Source: a virus
Virus record (IMG/VR): IMGVR_UViG_3300011113_000756
Location: 1-25,606 of that record
Length of the DNA stretch: 25,606 nt
Direction: 5' to 3' (one strand)
In this document: in pieces, positions 2,322 through 25,155 of the stretch
Position numbering within the stretch: the stretch's first letter is position 1
How the letters are laid out: each line of letters begins with the position of its first letter
Notes under the pieces: model-generated
What the model was told of the DNA's origin: nothing
Seen by the model: the letters and a program-made list of their open reading frames with translations, nothing else
Database searches by the model: none
Position numbers and translations under genes: made by a program

Positions 2322-2858
2322 TCACCAATCAACCATTACCATTTTTCCGTTCCACGTCATTATATTTTCAGATCTAAAATCTAAATCTAAATCAAATTCT
2401 GGAATATTTAGCTTTTCGATATCTAGTTGCAATGCATCTAAAAAATTATTTAATTGAGTATTTACTGAATCAGTTTGTGAAATAAATTCAAAAATAGATA
2501 CTTCTCCACCGTGTTCCCTAGCAAATTGACCAAAATCTCGCATAAACATATCAATTTCTTGTTTTATTGTTTCGGGTAACGGTTCTGCATTAGCCATTAT
2601 AAACATATCAGATCCATTAACATAATATACTGGTATGAATGAAGAATATTCTGTATGTTTATTAAGTATACGAGCTGCTACTTTATATTCATCACGTTCC
2701 TTAGTAATTTTAAAAACTTTATCTTCTCCATTAATTTCATAAACGCGACCATTATCTCCAGCACCTATACTTTTAAAGTCATCGTTTTTTATTTTCTCTA
2801 AACAACGTTTTAAATCAGGATCGGAAATTTCTCGTAATAATTGTTTTAATCGTATCAT
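2322..2858 (-). CDS. minimal protein kinase / phosphotransferase-fold protein
   Basis: The 178-aa protein carries the ATP-binding signatures of the kinase/aminoglycoside-phosphotransferase fold. It has a glycine loop GAGDNGRVY (32-40), an invariant-type lysine in KVFKIT (K50), a helix-C-like EYKVAARIL (57-65), a hinge-like MFIMANAEPL (85-94), and a catalytic loop LDLDFRSENIM with D160 and N165 five residues apart as in HRDLKPEN. It also has a metal-binding Asp in MVMVDW (D177). The protein ends right after that DFG-equivalent, so the activation segment and most of the C-lobe are absent. Other frames downstream show no obvious C-lobe remnant, so this looks native rather than broken. The N-terminus MIRLKQLLREI is an amphipathic helix of capsid-targeting style. 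The gene overlaps the stop of the 540-aa structural gene by 4 nt. Substrate and activity are unknown. Confidence 0.75.
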   Translation of the reverse strand: MIRLKQLLREISDPDLKRCLEKIKNDDFKSIGAGDNGRVYEINGEDKVFKITKERDEYKVAARILNKHTEYSSFIPVYYVNGSDMFIMANAEPLPETIKQEIDMFMRDFGQFAREHGGEVSIFEFISQTDSVNTQLNNFLDALQLDIEKLNIPEFDLDLDFRSENIMTWNGKMVMVDW

Positions 2859-21445: not shown

Positions 21446-21455
21446 ATATTTATAT
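21446..21455 (+). promoter_or_regulatory. ATATTTATAT box before 715-aa gene (divergent region)
   Basis: The plus strand reads ATATTTATAT, 22 nt before the ATG at 21478. Read on the minus strand the same bases give the canonical T4 late core TATAAATA pointing at uvdE, 67 nt from its start. The site could therefore serve either gene. Confidence 0.5.
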
Positions 21456-21477: not shown

Positions 21478-23625
21478 ATGAATTTTGAGCAAATTTTACG
21501 AGAAAATATATTAAGATTCGGAACAAAAAATCTTAATGAAAATATAAAAAATAAACTCATGTTAGAGCAAGATCCAAATGAAGAACTGCCGGATCCATTA
21601 GAAAATCCAGAAGATGCTGAAATTTCGTATAATAAAAAAACATTAAAACAACGTATTAATCAAACAGCTGCAACGGCGAAAAAAGTTATTGGAACTGCCA
21701 CATTAGTTGCTCCACTTTCTAAAATTATTCGAAATCGTCTTTTTAAAAGATATGTTACAAAAAATGGGATTCCTACTAAAGAACAATTGATAGCTAAAGA
21801 TAGCGATCGCGTTAAATCACATCCGGCATATCAACAAACAATTGATTTAATGTATCGAGATAAACGTACGTTAAAGAATGCATCTAGATATATGAATCAA
21901 GGTTATGGCGGTGCCAAACAAACAGCTGGTTTGCCTGTATTATATTGGTATGGAGTTCCTGCGTTAGGTGGAGAGGCAAATCCAGAAGATCAAAAATCTA
22001 TGGAAGCTTTGTTGAATATGATGGCATCAAATAAAGAATTGATGATTAGTAAGATGACAGATGATACTAAAAAATCAGAATTTAATTCTAATATTACTTT
22101 ATTAATTAATGGTTTAAAAGAATTATATGATAGCGGAGTTTATATAACTACGCAAGATTTATTAGATGCAACAAGTGGACAATGGTGGGGTGTGATATTA
22201 AACCAGTTACTTTCTGCACCAAATACATGGACTGATAATACTGCTTGGTATGAAGATGATGCATCAATGAGTCTAATTTCAAAAACTAAAAGTTTCTTAG
22301 CTGCAATTAAATTAGGTATAGCTGATTCCGGTATAACACCAAAAGGTGAAAAATTAAGAAACATGGAAATAACTGCAACTGCTACATTACAATTATCTGA
22401 TGATGAAAAATTAAATATTTTAACGATGTTTCAAGAAAGATCAGAAGAAGTTGGAAAACCAATTATTGATGCAACATATTGGGACATTGAATCTGCAGGA
22501 ATCGGAATTAAAACAAACAAAGCTATAGAAACTACTACAGTAAAAGGACAAAAAGGTGCCGTTGAAGTAACATATCAATTTTTTACATTACCAGCTGACC
22601 CTAATGGCCCGGAAGCTCGAAATGCATTTTTTGGTAATAGTGATAACGAAACTGTAGTTAATCAAGATGGAATTTCAAAAATGAATTCTTTACTTAACGG
22701 ATTAATTGATGAAGCTAAAAAACAAGGACAACAAGTAGTATCCGTACAATATTGTGCGGGAGCTAAAACTAGTGCCGTTGGTACCACATTTGGGATGTCA
22801 TCTAAACAAAAAGTTAGTGCTGGCGAAGAACAAAAAACACAAGCTAATGTTTCATTAGCTAATGCTAGATGTACATCTATATTAAAATCAATTAATGATT
22901 CTGTATTACCATCAATAAAAAGTCAGCCTAATATGGGTGATGACAAAGTTGCATATAGTACTATATCAGCTGCAGTTGGTGGAAATAAAGGAAGATTTGC
23001 ATATCCAAATTGTGGCCCAGGATGGTATGAATATTCTCCAGCGGGAACTAGCGATAAACATAAAGGTACAGGATATGGGCCTATATTTAATAATATATAC
23101 AATATTTTAAAAACAAACAATCCTAAAATCAATAATATTGCGTTATTTGAATATTACAATACTCCTAGATCATTTTATATTTGTAGAAATCAACCAGTAG
23201 CATATAAAACATTGGTAGGATATTTAACCGCATTAAAAAATTCAGATTCAAAAAAATACGGAAGTTTACAAATACCATCTGCACAACAAATCGAAGCAGA
23301 ATATCAATCAGTATTCGGTCCGTTCCGAGGAACATATGCAGGATTTTTAATTGGTACCGTAGTTGCAACCGAAACGGTTTCAAATCCGGAAGTAGATAAA
23401 GCTTTAGAAGTTGAAATTGAAAAATTTGGAGAATTTGAAGCAATTATCGATTGGACATCAAGATTTAAAACATTAACAACTCGTATTGGTACTTGGGTGG
23501 TTACAACATGGAAAAATTCATGGAAATGGGTTAAAAAAATTGAACTACCAAAATTACCTAATAATCCTAGCGGATTTTTGGGTGCAGTTCAATCAGTTGA
23601 ACATTTATGTAATGCGTATGATTAA
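21478..23625 (+). CDS. 715-aa candidate packaged/internal virion protein
   Basis: I start the gene at the ATG at 21478 because CAGGAATTAT precedes it; the frame is open farther up (a TTG at 21409 and an ATG at 21454 inside the box). The N-terminus (FEQILRENILRFGTKNLNEN) is nearly identical to that of the 286-aa protein at 24295, but the bodies are unrelated. Such a conserved leader followed by LNE and MLEQ sites recalls T4 internal proteins, whose capsid-targeting propeptide is removed by the gp21 protease. The body is mixed alpha/beta with few recognisable motifs; NVSLANARCTSILKSIN near residues 460-476 loosely recalls the OmpA-family 'LSxxRA' helix. The C-terminus is Trp-rich and basic. The gene is convergent with the CAP gene, stop codons overlapping by 4 nt. 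Function unknown. Confidence 0.75.
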   Translation: MNFEQILRENILRFGTKNLNENIKNKLMLEQDPNEELPDPLENPEDAEISYNKKTLKQRINQTAATAKKVIGTATLVAPLSKIIRNRLFKRYVTKNGIPTKEQLIAKDSDRVKSHPAYQQTIDLMYRDKRTLKNASRYMNQGYGGAKQTAGLPVLYWYGVPALGGEANPEDQKSMEALLNMMASNKELMISKMTDDTKKSEFNSNITLLINGLKELYDSGVYITTQDLLDATSGQWWGVILNQLLSAPNTWTDNTAWYEDDASMSLISKTKSFLAAIKLGIADSGITPKGEKLRNMEITATATLQLSDDEKLNILTMFQERSEEVGKPIIDATYWDIESAGIGIKTNKAIETTTVKGQKGAVEVTYQFFTLPADPNGPEARNAFFGNSDNETVVNQDGISKMNSLLNGLIDEAKKQGQQVVSVQYCAGAKTSAVGTTFGMSSKQKVSAGEEQKTQANVSLANARCTSILKSINDSVLPSIKSQPNMGDDKVAYSTISAAVGGNKGRFAYPNCGPGWYEYSPAGTSDKHKGTGYGPIFNNIYNILKTNNPKINNIALFEYYNTPRSFYICRNQPVAYKTLVGYLTALKNSDSKKYGSLQIPSAQQIEAEYQSVFGPFRGTYAGFLIGTVVATETVSNPEVDKALEVEIEKFGEFEAIIDWTSRFKTLTTRIGTWVVTTWKNSWKWVKKIELPKLPNNPSGFLGAVQSVEHLCNAYD

Positions 23626-24182
23626 AAGAATCGAACAACGGTTCTTCCAATAATTACCGGAGATGGTGTTATTTCGTTAACTAACTGCCATTGTTGTCCA
23701 ATTGCGATTTTTATAAAATTTGTACCTAATATTACGGCTCGATGGCCCGAAGAATTCATCCAAGCGTTAACTTGGCGAATTGCTTCTGATTTTACATTTT
23801 TTAACATTAATTCTGTACTTACTCCGCCGTAACATATCTCCCATATGGCATCCGGATTGCCGCTATAATGTCCAATTGCATTATCACCTAACATTTGTTT
23901 AGCATATATCTGACAAGACGCGTCTTTTGATTTAATTCTTTGAACAATGGGTAAATTATGTTGTTTTCGAATTCTATTGATTTCATCTACAATCAATTGA
24001 TTTAATGAATCTATTAATTTAGTATTAGTTAAAATATCTTGCGTTATGCGAATACTATCTGCTTTTCTCGTATTAGAAGCTTGTTGCAAGATAGAATTTT
24101 TAAAATCTACTTCCATAAACATGTTTTGCGAAAAAACATTACTAGATATAAAAACGTAAACTAAAACGATTAACTTTTTCAT
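23622..24182 (-). CDS. secreted CAP/SCP-domain protein
   Basis: I start the gene at the ATG at 24182 (MKKLIVLVYVFISSNVFSQ), which gives an ideal signal peptide with a likely cut before or at Q19, preceded by AGAGAG. The mature 168-aa protein contains a CAP domain (SCP/PR-1/Ag5, cysteine-rich secretory type): LIVDEINRIRKQHNLP (63-78), GHYSG (H105), WEICYGG (E115), then AIRQVNAWMNSSGHRAVIL (H147). The His/Glu/His set matches the conserved CAP cavity residues. Bacterial CAP proteins are secreted and of varied function; a phage copy is unusual. The signal peptide style (FSQ) is typical of Bacteroidota, which hints at the host. It shares a divergent 112-nt region with the 286-aa gene. Confidence 0.85.
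   Translation of the reverse strand: MKKLIVLVYVFISSNVFSQNMFMEVDFKNSILQQASNTRKADSIRITQDILTNTKLIDSLNQLIVDEINRIRKQHNLPIVQRIKSKDASCQIYAKQMLGDNAIGHYSGNPDAIWEICYGGVSTELMLKNVKSEAIRQVNAWMNSSGHRAVILGTNFIKIAIGQQWQLVNEITPSPVIIGRTVVRFF
23626..23646. terminator. hairpin at convergent gene ends
   Basis: AAGAATCG (23626-23633) pairs with CGGTTCTT (23639-23646) through a 5-nt loop: 8 bp with one G-U pair. It sits exactly where the 715-aa (plus) and CAP (minus) genes converge. On the minus strand it is followed by TT, with four T in total; on the plus strand there is no T-run. A possible weak bidirectional terminator that also lies inside the CAP coding end. Confidence 0.3.
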
Positions 24183-24260
24183 AAACTCTCTTTTATAGAA
24201 AATAAGAAATAAAACAATAATATCCAATCTTTTTATAAACTTATTTTTTTTTATTTGTTA

Positions 24261-24270
24261 ATATTTATAT
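24261..24270 (+). promoter_or_regulatory. ATATTTATAT box before 286-aa gene (divergent region)
   Basis: The plus strand reads ATATTTATAT, 24 nt before the ATG at 24295, followed by AAAGAA and the ribosome site AAAGGAAAG. The flanking sequence matches the 21446 copy (box, one base, AAAGAA). The opposite strand shows TATAAATA facing the CAP gene. Confidence 0.55.
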
Positions 24271-24294
24271 CAAAGAAACCTTAAAGGAAAGAAT

Positions 24295-25155
24295 ATGAAA
24301 AACATCTTAGCAGAAAATTTACTTCGTTTTGGAGTAAAGAATTTATCAGAAGATATCAAACGTAAATTGCAAGAACAAACCGACCCTACAACAGATCCGA
24401 ATGTAAATTTAGGTGCCGGTAGTAAATTAAATCAAACATTAGGAAATGTATTAGATGCTAAGCAAATAGAACTATTGAATCAGGGAAAGGCTGCAGTTAA
24501 CGACAGTACGCAAAAGCAAATATTTGATAACTACTACCAGGCTCAGCAATCAGCAGTTGGTAAATATTTAATACTTAATGGTATTTCTCCAAAATCTAAA
24601 ATAATAGGTCCAATAAAAGCAATATTTCAGGGTGTAGATGACGGCGGCAATTCTAGAATATTTGTATGGACAACTAAAACCCCTATATTAAATTTTTCTG
24701 GATTACAAAAAGCATATCTAGATATTCCTGTTAAAGATTTTAAAAGCACACTTTCGGGACATTTAAATGTCGCGTATGGTTTAGACGCCGGTGACATTAT
24801 TTTATCGAGAATAGTAGATAATAAAGGTTTACCGCCGCTGTCGTCTGATCAAGCACCGGGAATACCTTTATCATATTTTACAACTAAACCTAGAGCATAT
24901 GATTATGCAATATTTTCAGATAAAATAGTAGAAGGAAACAAATTTGCAATTTATAATAACACGGGACAACAAGTAGGTACAATACCAGTCCAAATTATGG
25001 TTACTAGTCAGACTTTAGACCAAACTGGAATAGAAGCTAGAACAAATCCTAATGAAACAAAACAAATTCAATCATTACGAACTGCAAATCTTAAAAAATT
25101 AAATGTAAATCAGCAACGGGCTAAAGAAAGAATAGAAAACGGTATTCAACCTTAA
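24295..25155 (+). CDS. 286-aa candidate packaged/internal virion protein
   Basis: The gene starts at an ATG preceded by AAAGGAAAGAAT, the strongest ribosome site in the window. The first 30 residues (KNILAENLLRFGVKNLSED, then IKRKLQEQTDP) are almost the same as in the 715-aa protein, while the rest is unrelated, so the leader is a movable module. LSE and LQE are candidate prohead-protease sites by T4 gp21 logic (L-x-E). The body is beta-rich from about residue 90 (KIIGPIKAIFQGVDDGGNSR, FVWTTKTPIL, FAIYNNTGQQVG) with a helical basic C-terminus. There is no signal peptide or TM segment. No family recognised. It ends 5 nt before the stop of the convergent DUF2927-like gene. Confidence 0.8.
   Translation: MKNILAENLLRFGVKNLSEDIKRKLQEQTDPTTDPNVNLGAGSKLNQTLGNVLDAKQIELLNQGKAAVNDSTQKQIFDNYYQAQQSAVGKYLILNGISPKSKIIGPIKAIFQGVDDGGNSRIFVWTTKTPILNFSGLQKAYLDIPVKDFKSTLSGHLNVAYGLDAGDIILSRIVDNKGLPPLSSDQAPGIPLSYFTTKPRAYDYAIFSDKIVEGNKFAIYNNTGQQVGTIPVQIMVTSQTLDQTGIEARTNPNETKQIQSLRTANLKKLNVNQQRAKERIENGIQP

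Follow-up and report, generated by a model that had tools for sequence, protein, structure and literature searches.

A short N-terminal leader, carried by proteins with otherwise unrelated bodies, is widespread in a group of uncultured phages and is most probably a capsid-targeting propeptide that a gp21-like prohead protease cuts off and that marks injected cargo. The leader is modular, keeps L-x-E sites at conserved places, occurs together with a gp21-like protease and behind a promoter motif of structural genes, and is swapped for a second leader exactly at L-x-E. In phage T4, the internal proteins IPI-III and Alt carry an N-terminal capsid-targeting sequence that gp21 cuts at L/I-x-E. We infer that the proteins described here are packaged, cleaved and ejected. 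The leader would direct unrelated late proteins to the core of the assembling prohead, where the gp21-like protease would remove it at L/I-x-E, the final cut falling after the last L-x-E and usually before Q or A. The mature proteins would then stay packed with the DNA and be ejected on infection. The initial annotation had read the leader of two proteins as a candidate for such a signal, and the module itself, its L-x-E sites, the gp21-like protease, the swapping, the gp21 N-termini and the promoter motif all support that reading at the level of sequence.

The two proteins are encoded in the window, a 25.6 kb fragment of a T4-like phage (uncultured virus record IMGVR_UViG_3300011113_000756). 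Its minus strand holds a T4-like baseplate operon, and the genes for the 715-aa and 286-aa leader proteins lie beyond it on the plus strand (Table 1); no head genes were found in the fragment. The 715-aa gene adjoins a gene for a UvsE-type UV endonuclease. An alternative upstream TTG start would extend its product to 738 aa, and we favored the ATG at 21478 because a ATATTTATAT motif lies 32 nt upstream of it. Both reading frames are in place and, as had been noticed earlier, their products start almost identically and then diverge completely. BLASTP aligned residues 3-33 of the 715-aa protein with residues 1-31 of the 286-aa protein (18 of 31 identical, E 6e-8) and returned no alignment outside this segment. 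When the C-terminal domain of the 715-aa family was compared with the body of the 286-aa protein, profile against profile, the probability was 0.1%, which indicates no detectable relation between the bodies. The shared segment, which ends at residues 33 and 31, is therefore not part of a longer homologous domain. The 286-aa body has no known relatives outside the present phage group. An exported YkwD/CAP-type protein is encoded between the two genes on the opposite strand (23622-24227, minus). In a 130 kb relative (G005, 120491-123790, minus), small exported proteins are likewise encoded in between leader genes and in the opposite orientation to them.

Table 1. Positions of leader genes, predicted processing sites and associated features in the window
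Feature	Position	Strand
178-aa protein with short leader MIRLKQLLRE, L-x-E at residue 10	2325..2858	-
ATATTTATAT promoter-like motif, 32 nt before ATG of 715-aa gene	21446..21455	+
715-aa leader protein, cargo candidate	21478..23625	+
Leader of 715-aa protein, residues 1-30, candidate capsid-targeting propeptide	21478..21567	+
Candidate cuts in 715-aa leader	after E9 (21504), E21 (21540), E30 (21567)	
C-terminal domain of 715-aa protein, residues 363-638, predicted OmpA-like fold	22564..23391	+
ATATTTATAT promoter-like motif, 34 nt before ATG of 286-aa gene	24261..24270	+
286-aa leader protein, cargo candidate	24295..25155	+
Leader of 286-aa protein, residues 1-27, candidate capsid-targeting propeptide	24295..24375	+
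Candidate cuts in 286-aa leader; predicted mature start Q28	after E7 (24315), E19 (24351), E27 (24375)	

When we searched IMG/VR with the 286-aa protein, 42 contigs matched, nearly all of them through residues 1-30 or so alone. A leader profile built from 20 leaders matched 177 contigs, and the loci retained for analysis were the best 79 of the profile matches across them. The search for other ORFs with this leader in related phages, which had been suggested for the original pair, thus returned 117 distinct proteins from the IMG/VR matches, some of them cut by contig ends, with up to six leader proteins on one contig. Their bodies fell into 71 families at a phmmer threshold of 1e-4, a number that may be an overcount, as remote relatives were possibly split. 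The consensus of the leader is MKNILAENMLRFGxKNLSE...LxE, with a core EN-x-x-RF-G-x-KN in which N, R, F and N are invariant. The profile had no match in GTDB genomes and no convincing match among the cultured phages of INPHARED, the leader was not found on the genes for the major capsid protein, the scaffold or the prohead protease, and its sequence was not found in the open-access papers searched.

Most leader genes share an upstream motif as well. The motif ATATTTAT was found 12-50 nt upstream of 83 of 102 leader genes, compared to 0.7% of random positions, and in relatives the same motif also stands in front of genes for portal, scaffold, neck and tail proteins. In G005, it lies at this distance from 15 of 53 genes of the structural region, many of which are probably in operons, and from 6 of 62 genes in the first 55 kb. 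The T4 late promoter is TATAAATA; the ATATTTATAT/ATATTTAT motif includes its reverse complement, perhaps by coincidence. A promoter motif and leader common to very different bodies would also be expected from a mobile cassette, in which recombination repeatedly joins one 5' end to new genes and the peptide has no function. We consider this explanation barely credible, as the codons of the invariant leader residues vary synonymously and the L-x-E sites persist at variable spacing, both of which indicate selection on the peptide and not on the DNA.

We then measured site positions in 102 nonredundant leader proteins relative to the invariant Phe. L/I-x-E is present at -5 in 100 proteins (98%) and at +7 in 77 (75%). 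A third L/I-x-E follows between +9 and +30 in 84 of 102, with variable spacing that peaks at +15 and +18. Body windows contain such a site in approximately 10 of 99 cases, and shuffled versions of the same stretch in 37 of 102; the expectation that L-x-E would be retained in leaders even where the spacing varies was thus borne out. The residue after the third site is Q in 37 proteins and A in 15. In the window, the 715-aa protein has LRE-9, LNE-21 and MLE-30, then Q, and the 286-aa protein has LAE-7, LSE-19 and LQE-27, then Q. Of the positions originally said to fit the T4 rule, LNE, LSE and LQE do so, while MLE-30 fits only loosely because of the Met in place of Leu or Ile at P3; LRE-9 and LAE-7 had been missed. 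We also looked for avoidance of L/I-x-E in the bodies. The ratio of 0.83 there, compared to 1.21 in other ORFs, hints at avoidance, but the comparison is confounded by a parallel depletion of L/I-x-x-E.

A second class of leaders comprises only ten residues, MI(K/R)LKxLLxE, and often stands behind the same promoter motif as the long one. Several body families include members with the long and members with the short leader, and in these homology restarts at the last L-x-E. For example, MIRLTDLLNE/QTRV in L103 corresponds to ...QSLNE/QTRV in L038 (67% identity over 391 aa), MIKLKSLLME/ADPGDPSQ in L015 to ...QRLTE/ADPGDPSQ (64% over 184 aa), and MIKLKSLLLE/QDENYW in G005 to ...LILQE/QNDEYW. This restart is what a removable leader predicts and would place the mature N-terminus directly after the last L-x-E. 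The window encodes a short-leader protein of 178 aa, which is conserved in four of five long relatives and is possibly a further cargo or core-associated protein. Its motifs GxGDNGRVY...VFK and DLDLDF-SDN-M...VDW look like those of kinases or phosphotransferases, a reading that profile searches did not confirm. The neighboring 554-aa protein (approximately 644-2305, minus) starts with MKNIKIQHIIQNYLNEQHLLPIAGG, has LNE followed by Q near its N-terminus, and possibly carries a further leader type.

The protease that would act on these sites is encoded by the same phages. A gp21-like S77 protease (PF03420, E 1e-33 to 1e-35) is present in all five of the longest leader contigs, three of which also have a gp23-type capsid protein. 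The gp21-like enzyme anticipated in the initial annotation thus exists, in relatives of a window that itself has no head genes. Conversely, when contigs were fetched for a close gp21, leader genes were present on 9 of 9 contigs of at least 50 kb and on 0 of 7 shorter ones, as expected if gp21 and the leader genes lie apart. The proteases themselves resemble the leader at their N-termini, which mostly read MSKQLIVEYMPFKPVGSLTES (78 sequences). Ranked by the leader profile among all 378 non-leader N-termini of the five long records, they took positions 1, 2, 5, 16 and 88 (P = 0.0003, which is optimistic because the five protease N-termini are related to one another). Their log-odds scores are below zero, so the link is one of ranking and resemblance and not proven homology. 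In four of the five, the glutamates of paired [L/I/V]-x-E motifs are 12 residues apart, the same spacing as in the leader. This resemblance, together with the strong conservation of ENMLRFGxKNL beyond the first L-x-E, is also compatible with a leader that attaches to the prohead core, or to some other factor in assembly, and stays on, leaving core-associated proteins that need not be injected. Such permanent binding is, however, quite improbable, given that the swap with a ten-residue leader takes place exactly at the last L-x-E, as predicted for a cut site.

The bodies behind the leader are mostly unlike anything known. In Pfam and PHROG scans almost none could be named and most matched nothing. 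Phage proteins that are injected usually go unseen in sequence data, since their mature parts change rapidly and resemble nothing known; if the propeptide reading is true, a removable leader would list the cargo of this widespread group of uncultured phages straight from the DNA, predict each mature N-terminus, and offer a tag with which foreign proteins could be loaded into such heads. A peptide-pattern scan for close relatives of the 715-aa protein found none, and a profile search succeeded, identifying a family of 18 members among the collected loci, all 18 with the leader. The full-length model was poor (pLDDT 59), which made a structure search with it meaningless, whereas the C-terminal domain alone was modeled by AlphaFold2 with a pLDDT of 82.8 and a pTM of 0.79. 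The top eight Foldseek matches of this domain in the PDB are all OmpA-like domains, with E-values of only 0.1-0.3, and one of them was solved with diaminopimelate. The protein had no match in Pfam, and PF00691 appeared below threshold in the records of four relatives. It is tentatively predicted to end in an OmpA-like (peptidoglycan-associated) domain.

Envelope-type domains occur in other leader proteins too. Among long-leader members, one matches LysM and one an endolysin family. Short-leader proteins match PG_binding_1 (five members), Phage_lysozyme2 (four), Phage_lysozyme (two) and GDSL lipase (two), as well as M23, VanY and LysM. One short-leader protein (L099:16466-17821, minus) combines GDSL lipase, peptidoglycan-binding and phage lysozyme domains. 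Another (L004:10570-11010, plus) has a SET-domain match (Pfam E 4.6e-8), which is unusual in a phage, and is possibly an injected modifier. These domains raise the question of whether the leader instead serves to dock proteins onto the tail or baseplate, its bearers being cell-wall-acting tail components held by their N-terminal peptide. Leader genes often adjoin baseplate genes, and OmpA-like, LysM, lysozyme and peptidoglycan-binding domains occur among the proteins with long or short leaders. Among the points against capsid targeting, we counted that the leader is missing from the capsid, scaffold and protease proteins, that the T4 capsid-targeting sequence gave no score and that the short-leader 'tail lysozyme' and peptidoglycan-binding domains could suit tails. 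A tail tag nevertheless does not account for the presence of three L-x-E sites, for their retention where the spacing varies or for the Q or A that follows. Moreover, prohead proteases work inside the head in T4 assembly, and many leader proteins are 90-250 aa long and match no tail family. On balance, we regard tail docking as unlikely.

If the leader is a capsid-targeting propeptide, the ejected cargo could help to cross the envelope, as T7 gp16 does after ejection; here a role in the tail is the main rival. More tentatively, we propose that this contractile-tailed phage group might use two interchangeable removable labels to fill its heads with a large and rapidly changing set of proteins, many of them envelope-directed (OmpA-like, LysM, lysozyme or lipase-type), and that the ejected cargo might aid the DNA through peptidoglycan and periplasm. 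To our knowledge, such cargo-aided passage occurs in podoviruses and is not known for T4, and we know of no shared removable leader of the present kind on the ejected proteins of T7, P22 or crAss001. T7 gp14-16, P22 gp7, gp16 and gp20, and crAss001 cargo are stored in the virion and ejected to help the DNA across the envelope (PMC10172136), which would be a plausible job for leader cargo with OmpA-like or lysozyme domains.

The closest parallel is with the T4 internal proteins. As in IPI-III and Alt, the leader is N-terminal, common to otherwise divergent proteins and ends in L/I-x-E, and the phages that use it encode an S77 prohead protease and a gp23-type capsid. T4 propeptides of 10-19 residues target their proteins and are cut by gp21, and in IPIII targeting needs no more than the first ten residues, with residues 8 and 10 as processing determinants (PMC9026906). 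The short leader likewise has its L-x-E at residue 10. The long leader differs in its length of approximately 27-30 residues to the last site (the first is at residue 7 in the 286-aa protein), in having up to three sites, and in marking a far larger protein set across the phage group, with cargo candidates that have envelope-type domains. T4 IPIII ranked 379 of 427 against the leader profile, with no sequence similarity. The leader would thus do the job of the T4 capsid-targeting sequence with an unrelated string of residues, which sets it apart from the T4 family and, if true, means that the same principle is in use far from T4. Several cut motifs within one propeptide are found in SPN3US (PMC10052503) and in T4 and phiKZ head proteins (PMC5694885). 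The removable propeptides of SPN3US and phiKZ inner head and ejection proteins are similar in this respect; they are mostly much longer (often more than 100 residues) and are cut at A-x-E in SPN3US. In phage P1, the N-terminal part of DarB sends the protein, and also a reporter, into a myophage capsid (PMC9024508); this is a comparable N-terminal signal in a different phage, not described as a leader common to many proteins.

Among isolates, the closest capsid proteins are those of Microcystis phage Mel-JY01 (55%), the Flavobacterium phages immuto (54.7%) and Rhodothermus phage RM378 (39%), and from these isolates we conclude that the group probably infects Bacteroidota. The present leader is absent from Flavobacterium phage immuto, and no virion proteomics of this phage was found in the open-access papers searched. 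Immuto (NC_055915; host Flavobacterium sp. LMO8) has two analogous leaders of its own: FDLKKFLVENKLTxNSxLL is shared by four proteins that are otherwise unrelated, and MKKQILSEQFxRMQxLAGIITES by two proteins. Its annotation (loci L203-L206) makes no mention of leaders on these six proteins. Of the four copies of the first leader, three have two L/I-x-E motifs at a distance of 12 residues, as in the leader of the uncultured group. Judged from their sequences, the immuto leaders are an independent example of the principle, and they make the capsid-targeting idea testable in practice in a cultured phage.
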